A DNA stretch of 38,776 nucleotides from a virus. Positions 26,797-35,274 of the stretch are shown here, piece by piece; the first letter of the stretch is position 1; each line of letters opens with the position of its first letter. Made by a program: the position numbers and the translations under genes. The notes under the pieces are model-generated. The model ran no database searches and was not told the DNA's origin. It saw only the letters and a program-made list of their open reading frames with translations. Where the stretch lies: positions 1 through 38,776 of the IMG/VR virus record IMGVR_UViG_3300049793_000046. One strand, given 5' to 3'.

Positions 26797-26959
26797 CCAT
26801 CGCTTCTTTTGCGAATGCGACTTGCACTGGCATCAGATCACGGTCACCCAATTTCTCGTGCTCCAATATTCGCTTGGCCCACGCCAGATGATCGACCACG
26901 CCATTTGAAAAAAATCGCGGATATTTGCTATGCGCACGTTCGCGTGCGTTGTCACTCAT
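26783..26959 (-). CDS. Hypothetical protein, 58 aa
   Basis: ATG 26959 overlaps the helicase-loader stop (ATGA). The peptide MSDNARERAHSKYPRFFSNG... is helical with mixed charge and ends in EAMDDKA. Translational coupling to the loader supports expression. No function is recognised. Confidence 0.6.
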   Translation of the reverse strand: MSDNARERAHSKYPRFFSNGVVDHLAWAKRILEHEKLGDRDLMPVQVAFAKEAMDDKA

Positions 26960-27612
26960 GCTGAAACCCTTAGCGTGCTCATCAGCATTTTCAATTGTTC
27001 GCGGCCTTTTGATGTCGGCGGCGCGAGCAAGGGATTCATTTTGGTGCCAAGCATGCGTATAAGCCCTTCAGCGGCGTCGGGCGGCAGCAATGCTATGGCG
27101 CTCTCAAGCGGTATCCGTTTCAGTCTCACGGCGTCGGCTAGGGCTGTCTGGCGGCTGTTTTTATCCTCGCCGAACGACATAGACCATTTAATCGGGCATT
27201 TCTGGTCGCGGGCTTCCGTCACCAGCTTGGCGTAGACTTCCTTGAACGCCATCCGCGCCGCGATGCGGTCGCCGTCCTGGATCAGCGGCAAGGCCGCGCC
27301 CCACGCCTGCGCCATTTCATCGGTCCATGATGCGCTTTGATTTTCATCGGTTGGCAGCATTGCCCATGCCTCTTCCGGCCCTGGTCGTCCGTCCAGCATC
27401 TTGCAGCGTTTCGCAATACCGGCCGGCACCGGTGCAAATTCGCCGTGCTCGTCGCAGTACGCGGCAAACGCCATGCCGATGACTTGCAGCGGGTACGGCG
27501 TCAGCACATCGACCCACGCGCCAATGATGCCGGCGTCTGGCAGCGGCTTGCCGTATGCGCCCATGGTCTTGGTCAGCATTTGCAGAAACTGTTTTTTATC
27601 ATTCGCGTCCAT
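26956..27612 (-). CDS. Putative phage replication / helicase-loader protein, 218 aa
   Basis: Start ATG 27612 chosen, with GGAG 5 bases upstream and TAATG overlap with the initiator stop; a GTG at 27618 is the alternative. The N-terminus carries a pattern found in phage replication loaders: LTPYPLQVIGMAFAAYCDEHGEFAPVPAGIAKRC (a Trp/Tyr-rich helix then FxPxPxxI). The remainder is helical. The order (initiator then loader) is that of lambda O-P-type modules. The role is to bring the host DnaB helicase to the phage origin. Confidence 0.65.
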   Translation of the reverse strand: MDANDKKQFLQMLTKTMGAYGKPLPDAGIIGAWVDVLTPYPLQVIGMAFAAYCDEHGEFAPVPAGIAKRCKMLDGRPGPEEAWAMLPTDENQSASWTDEMAQAWGAALPLIQDGDRIAARMAFKEVYAKLVTEARDQKCPIKWSMSFGEDKNSRQTALADAVRLKRIPLESAIALLPPDAAEGLIRMLGTKMNPLLAPPTSKGREQLKMLMSTLRVSA

Positions 27613-28484
27613 TAGCACTCCATTTCGATCGTGTTTTCGTCATCGTGTCGCACATCTGCCATCACCTCGGCAATGATTCGGGCATTGCGTTGCTCAAGCG
27701 TTTCGGTTGCCGATATTGCCTGTCCAGTATCCAGTTGGATAAACCGGTCAATTTTCTCGGCATTGCGCAAAATTAGCCCCAGCCCGTTGTATTTCGTTTT
27801 CTGTTCGTTCTGGCCCATGTTGTACGGAGATTTGGAGCATCCACGAATGGCCTTGCAGATGTCGGCCGGCGTGTACAGCTTGAGCGCCTTCTCGATCAGC
27901 TTGATGCGGTTTTTGTCCAGCACAGATTTTTTGGAGTCCATGACTTTTTGCCAGTAGCCAAAAACCTCCGCAATCACGTCGAGCGGCTTTTGCTCGACAA
28001 TGGTTTTTTTCGGCAATCCGGAATCAGCAATCAAGGAATCAGGATGAGGGATGAGGGATGAGGGAATCAGGATGAGGGAATCAGCCGGAGTAGTTCCGTT
28101 TTTATCGCGATTAATACGGAAGTCAGTCAAATCCTTGATTTCATTGTCTTTTTCTGTGATGTCTGGAATGTCGCTACCTGAATCGCGCTCGTTCTTGTGT
28201 GGGTTCTGATGGCGGTCGAAATTGATCACTTTTATGTAGCGCTGACCTTGCACGGAATAAATCGAGATAAATCCAGATAAATCTAGATTGCTCGCGAGTT
28301 GCTCGATATCGCAATCATCGTATGGCAGCAACTGCGCCTTGATGCGCTTCGGCCTGTACTCGATGCAGCCTTTGAAATCGGCAATCGTCCACATGCCAAT
28401 AAACAGAAGCCGCGCAATCGGATCCAGATCGCCCAAGTCATCATTCTGGAAAAATCCCGGCTTGATATTGCGCGCCCTAGCCAT
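27612..28484 (-). CDS. Putative phage replication initiator, 290 aa
   Basis: Start ATG 28484 (GGGGAG upstream; overlaps the ASCH stop by 8 bases). The N-terminal half has the block MARARNIKPGFFQNDDLGDLDPIARLLFIGMWTIADFKG, common to phage initiator-like proteins with a winged-helix fold, then IKVINFDRHQNPHKNE. The C-terminal part (residues 170-260) is a DnaD-like helical domain (IEKALKLYTPADICKAIRGC). The linker about 120-165 is Ser/Ile/Pro-rich; direct repeats in its DNA at 28035..28082 could be origin iterons, as O-type initiators bind inside their own gene. Confidence 0.75.
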   Translation of the reverse strand: MARARNIKPGFFQNDDLGDLDPIARLLFIGMWTIADFKGCIEYRPKRIKAQLLPYDDCDIEQLASNLDLSGFISIYSVQGQRYIKVINFDRHQNPHKNERDSGSDIPDITEKDNEIKDLTDFRINRDKNGTTPADSLILIPSSLIPHPDSLIADSGLPKKTIVEQKPLDVIAEVFGYWQKVMDSKKSVLDKNRIKLIEKALKLYTPADICKAIRGCSKSPYNMGQNEQKTKYNGLGLILRNAEKIDRFIQLDTGQAISATETLEQRNARIIAEVMADVRHDDENTIEMEC

Positions 28485-29226
28485 TTGAATCCACTCCCCG
28501 AAATTCAATTACCCATACCCACGGATTCGCGGCCCATGATCCGGCGCCGTTGATCCGCTCCCACAGGGCGGCATAGTCGTCTTCTGCAGACTCAAGGCCC
28601 TCATCTTTTTCGAGGCCGTCGTAGAAGTAGCGGCCGGCCCACTCTTCAACGTGCGATCCGCCCTCATAGCGCGTATCGACGATGAGGTGGCGGCAGTCGA
28701 TCCCCTCTGCCAGCGCATCCGCCTCGCTGATGTCCTGCAAGCGCTCGACGCGCACCGAGACGATTTCGAGCGTGATGCGACTGGCCCATCGCGGCATGTG
28801 GATCGACGGCTTCCAGCGGCATACAAGGTTGTCGTCTGCATCCATATATTCCGGTGTCTCGCCGCCATCCGCTTTGTAATGGCAGTATTCAGGTGTATGC
28901 GAGTCGGGCGGCTCAATTTCGCCAAACCACATTGGACCGTTAAATGTCTCGCGCACCCATAGCCGGTCGCCGGGCTGCCCATATGTGCACTCGGACTCCC
29001 ACCCCTCAACATCCGATGTCGTGTATAGGAATTTCTTGCTCCCGCCATCCATCAACATTGCGCTGGGCGGCAGGTAATCGTTATGGCAGAGGAAGTCATT
29101 GCCATCCCATTTAAAGCCGTTCGGATAGGGTTGGTTCTTGCAAATGCGGCGCGTCTGCGTCTTGCTGCCGTCGAGCAGAGCGCGCACCATCGGACCTCTA
29201 AACAAAATAGGACGTTCTTTTTTCAT
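28477..29226 (-). CDS. ASCH-domain phage protein, 249 aa
   Basis: The usual phage ASCH family pattern is seen: KERPILFRGPMVRALLDGSKTQTRR at the N-terminus, YGQPGDRLWVRETF, SIHMPRWASRITLEIVSVRVERLQDISEADALAEGI and the end NPWVWVIEF. ASCH domains have a PUA-like fold and are thought to bind RNA or modified nucleotides. The protein is the first gene after the structured leader at 29241..29318, so it may be controlled by it. It is coupled to the initiator gene by an 8-base overlap. Confidence 0.8.
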   Translation of the reverse strand: MKKERPILFRGPMVRALLDGSKTQTRRICKNQPYPNGFKWDGNDFLCHNDYLPPSAMLMDGGSKKFLYTTSDVEGWESECTYGQPGDRLWVRETFNGPMWFGEIEPPDSHTPEYCHYKADGGETPEYMDADDNLVCRWKPSIHMPRWASRITLEIVSVRVERLQDISEADALAEGIDCRHLIVDTRYEGGSHVEEWAGRYFYDGLEKDEGLESAEDDYAALWERINGAGSWAANPWVWVIEFRGVDSNG

Positions 29227-29240
29227 ATTGTTTTACCCAT

Positions 29241-29318
29241 AAAAAAAGGCTTCACCTGGGGCATCTCTTGCGAGATGTTGAACGCTCAGCTTAATACTGA
29301 GTCCCCATGTGAAGCCTT
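29241..29318 (-). ncRNA. Three-way-junction RNA with U-tract (leader/attenuator or sRNA)
   Basis: Leftward RNA: AAGGCTTCAC pairs with GTGAAGCCTT (10 bp), one mismatch, then a further 5 bp (GGGG core) close a junction. Inside are a hairpin CATCTC-GCAA-GAGATG with a GNRA loop, and a hairpin CTCAG/CTGAG with a 7-base loop. Seven T follow the closing stem, as in an intrinsic terminator. It sits between the promoter 29378..29405 and the ASCH/replication genes. It could be a stand-alone small RNA or an attenuator that gates the replication operon. Confidence 0.7.
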
Positions 29319-29377
29319 ACTAAGATAATTGCCGTTCAAAGCAGATACTATTCTATCATGCAATACAGCAATTTTAC

Positions 29378-29405
29378 TTTATACCAGAGAAATATTTATT
29401 TTCAA
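29378..29405 (-). promoter_or_regulatory. Leftward promoter before the structured leader
   Basis: TTGAAA (29400..29405, 5 of 6) and TATAAA (29378..29383, 5 of 6) with a 16-base spacer and a TG one base before the -10 (extended). Transcription would start near 29371 and run through the three-way junction into the ASCH and replication genes. The inverted repeat AATTGC/GCAATT (29327..29332, 29368..29373) lies at the 5' end. Confidence 0.65.
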
Positions 29406-29419
29406 ACACTAACCATAAA

Positions 29420-29755
29420 TCAACACTTGCAACCGGAAGTTGTGGTAGTTAAAGCCACGCCAAATAGTTTCAGCACGTAACCCTCAAGCGCCCAAACTTT
29501 TTGCTTGGCGTTGTCGAAGGCGATCTTGCGGCCCAGCTCTGCATTGAAATTGGCGGGACTTGCGCAGGCGCTTTCTCCGGTCACAGTGAATCCGCTCGGC
29601 AGCTCGATACAACACACGGTCAGGCAGGTATTGCCAAATACGTGGTATTGCGCCGCTTCTGGCAGTCCGCACAGTTCGTTGATTCGTTCTGGCGTCACGC
29701 GCGGTGCAGTCAATCCCTTGGCTTGAATCTCTTGTTCGATTGCTTGGTCATTCAT
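29420..29755 (-). CDS. Phage Gp49/Gp66-family protein, 111 aa
   Basis: Start ATG 29755 in an ATGA overlap with the Tad2-like stop. The family signature is plain: MNDQAIEQEIQAKGLTAPRVTPERINEL, then VFGNTCLTVCCIELPSGFTVTGESACASPANF, and LGRKIAFDNAKQKVWALEGY. The C-terminus ends SGCKC. The function of this family is not established; it is very common in phages of proteobacteria. It is the last gene before the promoter and structured RNA of the replication operon. Confidence 0.85.
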   Translation of the reverse strand: MNDQAIEQEIQAKGLTAPRVTPERINELCGLPEAAQYHVFGNTCLTVCCIELPSGFTVTGESACASPANFNAELGRKIAFDNAKQKVWALEGYVLKLFGVALTTTTSGCKC

Positions 29756-30240
29756 GCGGTCATACTCCAATCATCAGACAGGCAGTCATTCACACTCGGA
29801 ACCCATGTGCTTACAGTTCCATCCACATTCTTGATTGCCATATATGCGTTATACGGAACCATTGCGCCATCACCAAAATGGCTTTTAGCAGCGTCAGTCT
29901 GAACCAGATATTCATTTGCAGGCACCAGATAGACAAACATGCCTTTACCGTTCCATCCGGAACGCGCAATGCTAAATCCTTTCTTCATCGCTTCAATTGC
30001 TAGGCCAAATGGCAAGCCAGACGTTTCACGATAGGCTAATTCGGCTTGTTCTTTTGGCGACCACGAAACGTATCCAGCATATTGCACAGTGTTCGGTTTC
30101 CCGCCATCCGTGTATTCAACCAAGTAGCCGGCATCTTCGCCATTCTCGTCCGTTGGTAATTGCCATCCACGGAAAATATTGTATTCAACCCGCGTCATCG
30201 GCCGCATGTTGACAATTTTTGTCCCGATATATTTCAGCAT
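29752..30240 (-). CDS. DUF2829 protein, Tad2-like anti-Thoeris candidate, 162 aa
   Basis: The C-terminal half (about residues 78-160) matches DUF2829/Tad2: FGLAIEAMKKGFSIARSGWNGKGMFVYLVP, then YNAYMAIKNVDGTVSTWVPSVNDCLSDDWSM. Tad2 proteins are known to sequester the gcADPR signals of Thoeris defence. An N-terminal about 75-residue module (YIGTKIVNMRPMTRVEYN...GYLVEYTDGG...YVSWSPKEQ) is frequently joined to phage proteins of this kind. Located in the early leftward region, as expected for a counter-defence gene. Activity here is inferred from the family only. Confidence 0.82.
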   Translation of the reverse strand: MLKYIGTKIVNMRPMTRVEYNIFRGWQLPTDENGEDAGYLVEYTDGGKPNTVQYAGYVSWSPKEQAELAYRETSGLPFGLAIEAMKKGFSIARSGWNGKGMFVYLVPANEYLVQTDAAKSHFGDGAMVPYNAYMAIKNVDGTVSTWVPSVNDCLSDDWSMTA

Positions 30241-31391: not shown

Positions 31392-31426
31392 AAAAAAATG
31401 CATACCAGATAATTCTGGTATGCATT
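31392..31426 (-). terminator. Strong intrinsic terminator after Ref-like nuclease gene
   Basis: Leftward, AATGCATACCAGA and TCTGGTATGCATT form a perfect 13-bp stem with an ATTA loop, followed by seven T. It separates the Ref-like gene (ending 31466) from the DUF6948-like gene (start 31372). A TATAAT on the same strand (31427..31432) adjoins the stem, so transcription from it would begin inside the hairpin and skip termination. Confidence 0.9.
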
Positions 31427-32165: not shown

Positions 32166-32978
32166 ATGACATACAAAGATCCGGCGCAACGACGCGCATA
32201 CATGAACGCAAGAGCCGCAAAGATTCGTAGCGGAGAGCATATTCCATCGAAAGAACGAAACGCAAGGAAGGGAGATGATATGACGTGCGCTAATTGCGCA
32301 AAATCTTTTTATAGATCGCCCGCCAATCGAGCCTCGTCTGGTGATCGTGGCGTCAACGATTACTGCTCTCGGACGTGCATGAGCGAGGCATTTAAGGGTA
32401 AATTTCTTGGAGAAAAATCCCCTAGATTTCTTAGTCGAATTAAGATCCCATGTGATAATTGCGGATCGACTGTCGCACGACCCCCATGGGAGTCTAGCAA
32501 AGAAGGTGAGATGACATTTTGCAATCGCGCCTGTTTCGGTGAATGGAAGTCCAAAAATTGGATGGGATCTGAAAACCCGGTTTGGAATGGCGGCAAAGGA
32601 AACTATTATGGACCTAATTGGATTCGCCAATCTAGGGAAGCTAGGCATAGGGACGGGCATTCCTGCCAGTTTTGCTGGGTCAATGAGCATCATCTTAGGC
32701 GCGCTCTGGACGTTCATCATATTCAACCATTTAGATTTTTTGGATTAGATAATTTTAAAGCCGGAAACAGTATTAGAAATTTGATTAGTTTGTGCGATAA
32801 ATGCCACACATACTTAGAAAAATTTTCTGCTCCCGGCGAAATTAAAACATGGGAAGATTTAAAATCTAAAGGTGATCCTCTGATTGCTGAGAGGTTTCTC
32901 GATTTTCATCAAACAAATCAACGTTCTCGGCCTCAAGATCAAGGTGAACAGCAGCAAGATTTTTGCATGCCTGTCTAA
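32166..32978 (+). CDS. HNH homing endonuclease with zinc knuckles, antisense to its surroundings, 270 aa
   Basis: Three parts are seen. Residues 41-71 (CANC, CSRTC) and 96-123 (CDNC, CNRAC) are two zinc knuckles. Residues 137-170 hold a WNGGKGNYYGPNWIRQSREARHRDGHSCQFC region. The HNH core has DVHHIQP (Asp182, His184-185), NLISLCDKCH and a C-terminal helix. It is oriented against all neighbouring early genes and has a -10 box abutting its ATG. The last about 37 residues overlap the 3' end of the convergent methyltransferase gene by 113 bases. A selfish homing gene is the best reading. Confidence 0.82.
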   Translation: MTYKDPAQRRAYMNARAAKIRSGEHIPSKERNARKGDDMTCANCAKSFYRSPANRASSGDRGVNDYCSRTCMSEAFKGKFLGEKSPRFLSRIKIPCDNCGSTVARPPWESSKEGEMTFCNRACFGEWKSKNWMGSENPVWNGGKGNYYGPNWIRQSREARHRDGHSCQFCWVNEHHLRRALDVHHIQPFRFFGLDNFKAGNSIRNLISLCDKCHTYLEKFSAPGEIKTWEDLKSKGDPLIAERFLDFHQTNQRSRPQDQGEQQQDFCMPV

Positions 32979-33876
32979 AATATGAACTTTTTAGCTCCGC
33001 CCCAACCCCTCTCCTCCCCAAACTAACAGCGCCATAAATTTCAGAGCCAACCCCAAGAAACGGAGAAAAAACTGTTTCTCCGGGGTTTGACCGCAATACT
33101 ACACATCTCTCAATGACATCCAGTTGAAGCGGATGGACGTGCTTCTCATCCTCACTATCTCGAGCTTCTCTGTATGGTAAAACACGCTGCATTCGGATGT
33201 CATCCCACATGCAATCAGCGTATTGACGCCATATCCAATGCGAGTAACGGTTTTCTGTTTGTTTCCCAGTCCATCCACGATAGGACAAAATATCTGCTGG
33301 CATAAGTCGTTCGCCAGCATATTTCAACATACCTACAGGGTGCGCGACAGGAACGGGGTTTTTCCCATCACGCCGGAACAGAAGTAAATAATCTGCAGAA
33401 GCAATTCCACAATCAATAGAGTCAGCAACAAGAGACGCATGAGCCAAGTTCTTCTGCATGGTACGGAGACGAACTTGCAAAGGCTCTTTCCATATAGCAT
33501 GGCGTCCCGCATACTTCCAACCCTCGCGTTCATGAAGCTTGATTATGTCACCAGGAAAGTCAATGTATGAGTCGGTGCCACCATTGCTGCGCGGGACGTC
33601 CATGCAATGCACGCAACTCATGCGCCCAGGCATCGTGATCCGAGCAAGCTCCCTAACCATGAATGTATATTGCTGAAAAAACGTATCGTAGTCATCGCAG
33701 TTTGATAGATCATTCGGATGACTTGAATAGGTGTACAGACCGCCATTGCTTGCTCCGAAGGGCGGGCTGTAAACTGATAAATGTATAGAGCCAGTAGGAA
33801 GTGATTGCATCACGCTCATACAATCAGCATTGTAAATTGCAAATTCATCGGTAACCACAGAATCAAGAACAGCCAT
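32866..33876 (-). CDS. DNA methyltransferase, beta-class (amino-methylating)
   Basis: 336 residues with the catalytic SPPF motif at 37-40 ahead of the SAM-binding region FSPFLGVGSEIYGAVSLGRRGVGAEL near residue 268; this order is that of beta-class N6-adenine or N4-cytosine methyltransferases. The DPPY-type box is SPPF, so N4-cytosine or N6-adenine cannot be told apart. It lies directly after the helicase gene (27-base gap). Together they may modify phage DNA, as an anti-restriction device, or control replication timing. Its 3' end overlaps the convergent HNH gene. Confidence 0.85.
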   Translation of the reverse strand: MAVLDSVVTDEFAIYNADCMSVMQSLPTGSIHLSVYSPPFGASNGGLYTYSSHPNDLSNCDDYDTFFQQYTFMVRELARITMPGRMSCVHCMDVPRSNGGTDSYIDFPGDIIKLHEREGWKYAGRHAIWKEPLQVRLRTMQKNLAHASLVADSIDCGIASADYLLLFRRDGKNPVPVAHPVGMLKYAGERLMPADILSYRGWTGKQTENRYSHWIWRQYADCMWDDIRMQRVLPYREARDSEDEKHVHPLQLDVIERCVVLRSNPGETVFSPFLGVGSEIYGAVSLGRRGVGAELKSSYFRQACKNLAAVHLDLEAENVDLFDENRETSQQSEDHL

Positions 33877-33903: not shown

Positions 33904-35274
33904 TTACATCCAACCTGGAACTATCACGGGTTTTGTGTAATTATTTACCCGATCAATACCTGTTGCATTCTGCATCTCCGCCACCAACCGTGAAAACATC
34001 TCGTCGGCCTGCACTGCCTTGCGCTGCAAATTCTTCATCACACCGCGTTCGCCCTCGGTCGTCACGATATCGACCGTGACCGGGCGTTTTTGCCCAAAGC
34101 GCCAATTGCGCCGCACCAGTTGATAATACTGCTCGAACGAATGCGACGGAAAAACGACAGCATGATTGCAATGCTGGAAATTTAAACCCATCGCACCTAT
34201 CTTTGGCTTTGTGATCAGGATGCGCGCCTTGTCTTCTGCGAATGCGGTGAGCTTTTCCTCTTTCGCGTCGTCGCTGTCGCTGCCGGATACCTGCACCGCA
34301 TCAGGGATCAATTTTTCCAGCAAATCACCCTCGTCGTTCAGATGACACCAGACGTTCGCCGGCTGGCCAGTGTGATTGACCATCGCCGCAACTTTCTCAC
34401 AGCGTTCCTCGATGCTGCGACGGCGATCCTCGCGCTGCTCTTTCAGCCCAATCGCCGGCATTGCAAACAGCATGCCATCGGCCAGCGTGTTGGTCTCAAC
34501 CAGGTGCTCCACCTCATTCAATTCAGGTAGCATGAATGCGCTATCGTCATAGCCTAGATCGGATGGCTTGCGCACAGCTAGCGCCCATGAGCATACCCAA
34601 CGCCAGAAAGGTATTTCCGCATGACCTTTGAGCCTGAACTTGATAACCTCGCCGCGCATGCGCCCAGTCGCACTATTGTTCAGGTCATTTTTGAAGAAGC
34701 GATTCAACATGTCCATATGTCCCATGTAACCCAATGCCTCGGACGATGTGCCAAGCTCAATGTAATCGTTTGGCGCTGCCGTGGCGGTCTGCAATAGCCG
34801 GTACTGGACCTTGCGCATAAACGCGGTAATCTGGCCGCGTCGTGCGCCTGCAAACGATTTTAGAATGCTCGACTCATCGCACACCACGCCGCCAAAATCA
34901 TCCGGGTTGAAATATTGCAGGCGCTCGTAATTGGTCACGATGATGCGGTCGCCGGCACGGATGACTCCATCACGCGACAGCCTGGCTTGTACGCCGAATT
35001 TCTCGGCCTCGTGGATGGTCTGCTGGCCGACTGCCAAAGGCGTCAAGTACAGAACTGGCTTTGCGGCATGGCGCACGACATTTTCAGCCCATACCAGACC
35101 CATTGGCGTCTTCCCAAGTCCGCAATCTGCAAATTTCGCGACGCGCCCTTTGCGAACATTGAACTCGACGATATGCTTTTGAAAGTCGAACAGGAAATCG
35201 GGCATCCACAGCGGTTTAAATCCGCTATCCGCACCGCCCTGCGATTTGGCATTAATGAAATCTTGATAGTTCAT
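33904..35274 (-). CDS. SNF2/DEAD-type helicase, 456 aa
   Basis: Motifs in order are a Q-like region, Walker A DCGLGKT (about residues 50-56), VTNYERLQ, a DEAH-like box VVCDESS (133-136), TATAAPND, and the motif VI region FPSHSFEQYYQLVRRNWRFGQ. Phage SNF2-like ATPases of this kind often pair with a methyltransferase. A good ribosome site (AGGGGAAGAA) precedes ATG 35274. It may remodel DNA during replication or recombination; it is not a replicative helicase by sequence. Confidence 0.85.
   Translation of the reverse strand: MNYQDFINAKSQGGADSGFKPLWMPDFLFDFQKHIVEFNVRKGRVAKFADCGLGKTPMGLVWAENVVRHAAKPVLYLTPLAVGQQTIHEAEKFGVQARLSRDGVIRAGDRIIVTNYERLQYFNPDDFGGVVCDESSILKSFAGARRGQITAFMRKVQYRLLQTATAAPNDYIELGTSSEALGYMGHMDMLNRFFKNDLNNSATGRMRGEVIKFRLKGHAEIPFWRWVCSWALAVRKPSDLGYDDSAFMLPELNEVEHLVETNTLADGMLFAMPAIGLKEQREDRRRSIEERCEKVAAMVNHTGQPANVWCHLNDEGDLLEKLIPDAVQVSGSDSDDAKEEKLTAFAEDKARILITKPKIGAMGLNFQHCNHAVVFPSHSFEQYYQLVRRNWRFGQKRPVTVDIVTTEGERGVMKNLQRKAVQADEMFSRLVAEMQNATGIDRVNNYTKPVIVPGWM

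Follow-up and report, generated by a model that had tools for sequence, protein, structure and literature searches.

The locus and its leader RNA

The window (the whole 38,776-nt stretch of IMG/VR virus record IMGVR_UViG_3300049793_000046) carries on its minus strand a structured RNA element, at 29343-29241, directly ahead of a group of genes that includes one for a replication initiation protein (Table 1). A sequence-only reading of this DNA had called these genes ASCH, initiator and loader. The initiator is supported by PHROGs; the ASCH assignment found no support in Pfam or among solved structures, and the loader assignment none in Pfam. The same strand has, upstream of the element, a gene for a protein of the N4 gp49 / Sf6 gene 66 family (PF13876, 29420-29770), directly adjacent to the element, and a Tad2-like gene (PF11195, E 2.7e-22, 29752-30240), whose product is possibly a Thoeris anti-defence protein.

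Table 1. Coordinates of the RNA element, its promoter and the genes downstream of it in the window
Feature	Position	Strand	Remarks
Extended -10 promoter element TGATAGAAT, poor -35	29350..29358	-	At family-conserved position
P0 hairpin UGC-UUUGAACG-GCA	29330..29343	-	3 bp in the window, stronger in most relatives
Pseudoknot B 5' strand UUGAACG, in P0 loop	29333..29339	-	Pairs with 29278-29284
Pseudoknot B 3' strand CGUUCAA, in junction J2/3	29278..29284	-	
Pseudoknot A 5' strand CUUAGUA, just 5' of P1	29318..29324	-	Partner is the P2 loop UAUUAAG
P1 5' arm AAGGCUUCACAUGGGG	29303..29318	-	A.G mismatch at the A after CAC
P1 3' arm CCCCAGGUGAAGCCUU	29246..29261	-	
P2 hairpin CUCAG-UAUUAAG-CUGAG	29285..29301	-	Loop engaged in pseudoknot A
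P3 hairpin CAUCUC-GCAA-GAGAUG, GNRA loop	29262..29277	-	
U-tract (U7), intrinsic-terminator-like end	29241..29247	-	T-run conserved in relatives
First downstream gene, phrog_874, unknown function	28477..29226	-	Start 15 nt after the U-tract
Replication initiation protein, phrog_16167	27612..28508	-	PHROGs, E 6e-69
Next operon gene, phrog_6028, unknown function	26956..27618	-	

The element forms a three-way junction, and the helix that closes it, P1, doubles as a terminator hairpin with a U-tract. P1 (AAGGCUUCAC-A-UGGGG paired with CCCCA-G-GUGAAGCCUU) has 15 bp and one A.G mismatch; it encloses the hairpins P2 (CUCAG/CUGAG) and P3, and is followed by U7. An intrinsic terminator consists of a stable GC-rich hairpin with a run of U directly after it, and this is how P1 and U7 are arranged. 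The closing stem with its mismatch, the two hairpins, one of them with a GNRA loop, and the seven U noticed in the sequence-only reading are all present, and the fold goes well beyond chance: z was -5.6 for the plus strand and -5.1 for the RNA strand, and 0 of 200 shuffles were as good. The RNA is, however, larger than first described. It starts at the hairpin P0, and P0 and both pseudoknots, the most diagnostic parts, had been missed. Pseudoknot B is a 7-bp helix between junction J2/3 and the P0 loop, the latter being the equivalent of CUUGGnnn of the family described below; in pseudoknot A the strand 5' of P1, whose last nucleotide also belongs to P1, pairs with the P2 loop. Together with the P1 three-way junction and the U-tract, these are the features by which family members are recognized. 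Covariance model R2 matched the element with E = 1.5e-14, a value that is not independent, since the window was among the sequences used to build R1 and R2; the helices are independent. A scan with R2 found no second copy in the window, the best other match on the RNA strand having E = 0.38. Among the early genes the minus strand also has a terminator-like site, a 13-bp hairpin (AATGCATACCAGAATTATCTGGTATGCATT) followed by T5 at 31397-31426, which was rejected as a family member (R2 E = 0.38).

The sequence-only reading had also described a good promoter. What stood of it is the extended -10 element, which lies where the family has one; the -35 is poor, and the TTGAAA/TAAAGT pair at 29405-29376 is no more than chance would give (4 promoter-like sites found, 4.4 expected). 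When the best -10 box was sought within 20 nt, with A required as its second base and T as its sixth, 117 of 150 members had it ending 5-8 nt before P0; since both the composition of the box and the length searched were preset, it is this peak, and not the presence of a box, that counts as evidence. The peak suggests that transcription probably begins at the base of P0 or close to it. The Burkholderia phages have an extra hairpin between the putative -10 and P0, a point against the attenuator reading given below.

On the 3' side, about two thirds of the members have the start of the longest nearby ORF 15-19 nt after P1, and an SD-like sequence lies 3' of P1 in 89 of 100. This geometry leaves little room for another promoter, so the transcript of the first gene should cross the terminator. 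It must be noted that constant spacing alone is weak evidence of regulation, because in other phages, at Vibrio loci, plain terminators too stand directly ahead of start codons. A short match to the 3' part of the phiPLPE element recurs in many Vibrio and enterobacterial phages, and the four loci examined contained only a plain terminator, with a start codon or an intergenic stretch after it; R2 detected no family member in the three of these phage records to which it was applied.

A new RNA family with covarying pseudoknots

The element is a real and widespread structured RNA of about 100 nt, and it represents a new family outside Rfam 15. Members were found with sequence patterns and with models built from them, and the E-values of the models are rough. 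When IMG/VR was scanned with a pattern that fixed no more than the ten outer bases of either P1 arm, with any 45-75 bases between them, 66 loci were obtained, where by our own estimate one or two were expected, and the same architecture was present in all 66. Patterns without a fixed P1 yielded members with an entirely different P1 sequence, in which pairing was retained. At least about 150 distinct members pass a strict descriptor, an earlier version of which had no match in 394 kb of shuffled sequence.

Across the family, pseudoknot B pairs the P0 loop CUUGGnnn with the strand nnnCCAA at the P2-P3 junction, and pseudoknot A pairs five to seven bases just 5' of P1 with the P2 loop. Among 52 distinct members selected on P1 alone, B was present in 51 and A in 49, and the numbers fell to 12 and 9, respectively, when the partners were swapped between members. 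In an alignment of 80 members, 96.8% of the pair positions can pair (74.9% after shuffling), pairing drops to 37-44% if the partners are slid by one to three columns, and 37 of the 42 pairs have compensatory changes on both sides. A second alignment, of 57 members and with the different-P1 ones included, gave 96.0% paired positions and compensatory changes in 37 of 41 pairs. Covariation in related leaders was the check named beforehand in the sequence-only reading, and the family passed it. The helix of pseudoknot B is 99.6-100% paired, with compensatory changes, and that of pseudoknot A 93.5-99.0%.

The U-tract was kept in all P1-selected members, which had been chosen without requiring it. 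In 81 of 100 distinct members pseudoknot A shares the first one to three bases of P1, which pair beside the U-tract, part of such overlap being expected by chance. The conserved unpaired or junction bases are the C of the P0 loop, the UG of J1/2 and the GA of J3/1, and P3 often has a tetraloop of a kind typical of stability. Two types can be distinguished: type I members have the core CACA/GGUG with an A.G mismatch (46 of 57), whereas in type II this position usually pairs. Sequence and covariation together support each predicted part of the layout, namely the promoter, P0, the two pseudoknots, the three-way junction, P1 with the U-tract, the ribosome site and the start codon. There is strong support for the view of a structured element ahead of replication genes that goes far beyond a plain terminator.

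At gathering scores, the 4227 models of Rfam 15 gave no match at the element in the window, in 14 further viral loci or in four cultured-phage loci, and low-threshold scans of single members returned only chance-level matches. In the literature searched we found no paper describing this RNA; it may have been listed earlier as an unnamed candidate in a large survey of structured RNAs in viruses.

Carriers, downstream genes and copies per genome

Five cultured phages carry the element: the Burkholderia phages BcepMigl, BcepIL02, DC1 and CSP3 (E = 1e-13 to 1e-16) and Iodobacter phage phiPLPE (3153-3258, E = 1.2e-13). It is also present in the uncultured myovirus MW202462. In the Burkholderia phages the sequences of P1 and pseudoknot A differ but the pairing is retained, and the element stands 11-12 nt before a small gene, which encodes a winged-helix protein in BcepMigl; after this gene a replication protein follows within one or two genes, and so does a DnaC-like gene in the three phages whose examined stretch reaches that far. 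The hosts of the cultured carriers are betaproteobacteria. In one uncultured locus (L107) a Betaproteobacteria-1 RNA (RF02932; 5962-6078, minus strand) lies about 140-180 nt from the element, which supports a betaproteobacterial host.

The genes 3' of the element are early genes, mostly of replication, gene calls in the uncultured loci being mechanical. Across the family they include genes for replication initiators, O-like proteins, RecT, ERF, a helicase and HNH endonucleases, and YqaJ-like recombination genes. The element was absent from the loci of relatives of the gp49-family gene, which precedes it in the window. It was likewise absent from the loci of relatives of the "ASCH" gene, where 29 upstream regions were read and most of 80 loci were searched with R1; the RNA thus spreads without being tied to that gene. 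Searches over the full length of other related or nearby phages were negative as well, indicating a patchy distribution. The window sequence, used as a nucleotide query, found nothing in plasmids or in E. coli genomes. Bacterial and archaeal genomes amounting to 257 Gb were scanned with a pattern, and the 19 stretches returned were all due to chance; a covariance-model search of 369 genomes of one class and 6 of one family found no member. Prophage copies may nevertheless exist, since the pattern fixed one P1 sequence and the model covered few genomes.

R2 matched in all 46 viral records searched, and most of them had a single copy. Five records had two copies, which point outward in three (G006, G014 and G413) and lie on the same strand in the other two (G408 and G411). 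The two copies in G006, and likewise in G014, stand ahead of different genes, one before recombination genes and the other before replication genes. Two fragments, L096 and L270, each contain two copies. The two copies, where compared (L270, L362, G006, G014), are usually one of type I, with the A.G mismatch, and one of type II, with a paired position and a different P1.

Possible functions

To our knowledge, the control of entry into phage early operons is understood in depth for a few models only, N/nut, Q and put. We think that the element is a cis-acting leader RNA which would serve as a conditional transcription terminator, i.e. an attenuator, of phage early operons, chiefly those of replication, and give this reading a probability of about 0.5. 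Among the three functions first offered in the sequence-only reading, a riboswitch-type attenuator, a put-like antitermination element and a free small RNA, a leader attenuator fits the geometry best. RNA polymerase would begin at the base of P0 or close to it; the hairpins P0, P2 and P3 would fold first, and the two pseudoknots would lock the junction. As the 3' arm emerges P1 would close, transcription would terminate, and a stable RNA with both ends in helices would be released. Since the stretch up to the start codon has little or no space for a further promoter, expression of the replication genes would depend entirely on polymerases that pass the terminator. The extent of read-through is presumably set by a signal, such as a phage or host protein, an elongation factor or a ligand, that senses the pseudoknotted core. 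Pseudoknot A, sharing one to three nucleotides with the base of the terminator helix beside the U-tract, would be a plausible lever. We found no conserved alternative fold that could act as an antiterminator.

In its order of parts (a 5' leader, an aptamer-like core, and a terminator directly before the SD and the ORF) the element resembles terminator-type riboswitches and attenuators; it differs from them in matching no known family and in the genes that it would control, which are diverse phage early genes. A ligand-binding riboswitch, in which the helix closing the aptamer would itself be the terminator, would account for the promoter, the pseudoknotted core and the few conserved bases in the P0 loop, J1/2 and J3/1. 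These unpaired bases are few, however, Rfam gave no match, and the downstream genes vary between phages and share no metabolic theme, which argues against one metabolic ligand; we consider this explanation very unlikely. Still less would we favour an elaborate but constitutive terminator or mRNA-end stabiliser that only insulates the replication operon from upstream transcription. The strong hairpin and U-tract are always present, and plain terminators occupy similar places in other phages, but such a function has no need for two covarying pseudoknots and a covarying P0 across unrelated phages, and we regard it as highly improbable.

A promoter, a compact RNA and a terminator also make up a complete transcription unit, and the element could be the gene of a free small RNA of about 100 nt, acting in trans, perhaps on a protein of the host or of the phage, with the operon fed by leaky read-through. 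The helical 5' and 3' ends, the sequestration of both pseudoknotted loops and the frequent stability-type tetraloops of P3 would suit a stable RNA. On the other hand, there is no exposed conserved stretch for antisense pairing, and the near-constant position directly before the start codons of early genes would be needless for an RNA acting in trans. It is an unlikely explanation in our opinion, although one to be kept in mind.

It is interesting to compare the element with two known antitermination systems. The put RNA of phage HK022 suppresses downstream termination via the zinc-binding domain of the RNA polymerase beta' subunit. It is about 70 nt long with two stem-loops, and of putL and putR, which lie downstream of the early promoters of divergent operons, one heads the recombination and the other the replication operon (PMC9378689). 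Our element is likewise a structured RNA at the start of an early operon, with one copy per operon in the two-copy genomes, and its action in cis at the level of transcription, if real, would be a further likeness. A processive antiterminator of the put kind, which would bind the RNA polymerase elongating it and so let the enzyme resist later terminators of the early operon, would be well placed just after an early promoter. The outward-facing pairs in three genomes, in two of which the division between recombination and replication genes is that of putL and putR (PMC9378689), are consistent with it, and the compact fold, in which the paired bases UUGG/CCAA are invariant, suggests that a protein recognizes it. 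In contrast to put, whose description has no such feature (PMC9378689), the element ends in its own terminator hairpin and U-tract; moreover, with about 100 nt, a three-way junction and two pseudoknots it does not have the two-stem fold of put. Most genomes, like the window, have only one copy, and two of the five pairs are on the same strand. Taken together, we judge a put-like function to be rather unlikely.

Like lambda nutR/tR1, the element is located in several genomes between cro-like and O/P-like replication genes, and includes a terminator. The lambda nut site consists of boxA plus boxB. Unlike nutR/tR1, the element is a highly structured RNA, has its own promoter in most members, and shows no enrichment of boxA-like sequence nearby: the lambda boxA-like GCTCTT was found upstream in 4 of 100 members, inside in none and downstream in 1, compared with 10 of 100 in shuffled flanks.

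We suggest, tentatively, that the family may form a new class among the regulatory RNAs of phages, in which a double-pseudoknot terminator would gate the early operons for replication and recombination in many unrelated phages of betaproteobacteria, by an RNA-only or RNA-polymerase-binding mechanism distinct from those of N/nut, Q and put, and that paired copies in some genomes may coordinate two operons. If this is true, phages would have a new way of gating their own replication, one that is easy to assay, and structural work would gain a new RNA fold. The five cultured carriers make the family testable, and an in vitro assay with E. coli RNA polymerase is possible now.

The window also contains adjacent DNA methyltransferase and helicase ORFs (32866-33876 and 33904-35274, minus strand), and both match one fused protein of 765 amino acids that heads an element in another locus (L340, 11351-13648); the pair in the window is possibly a split fusion gene.
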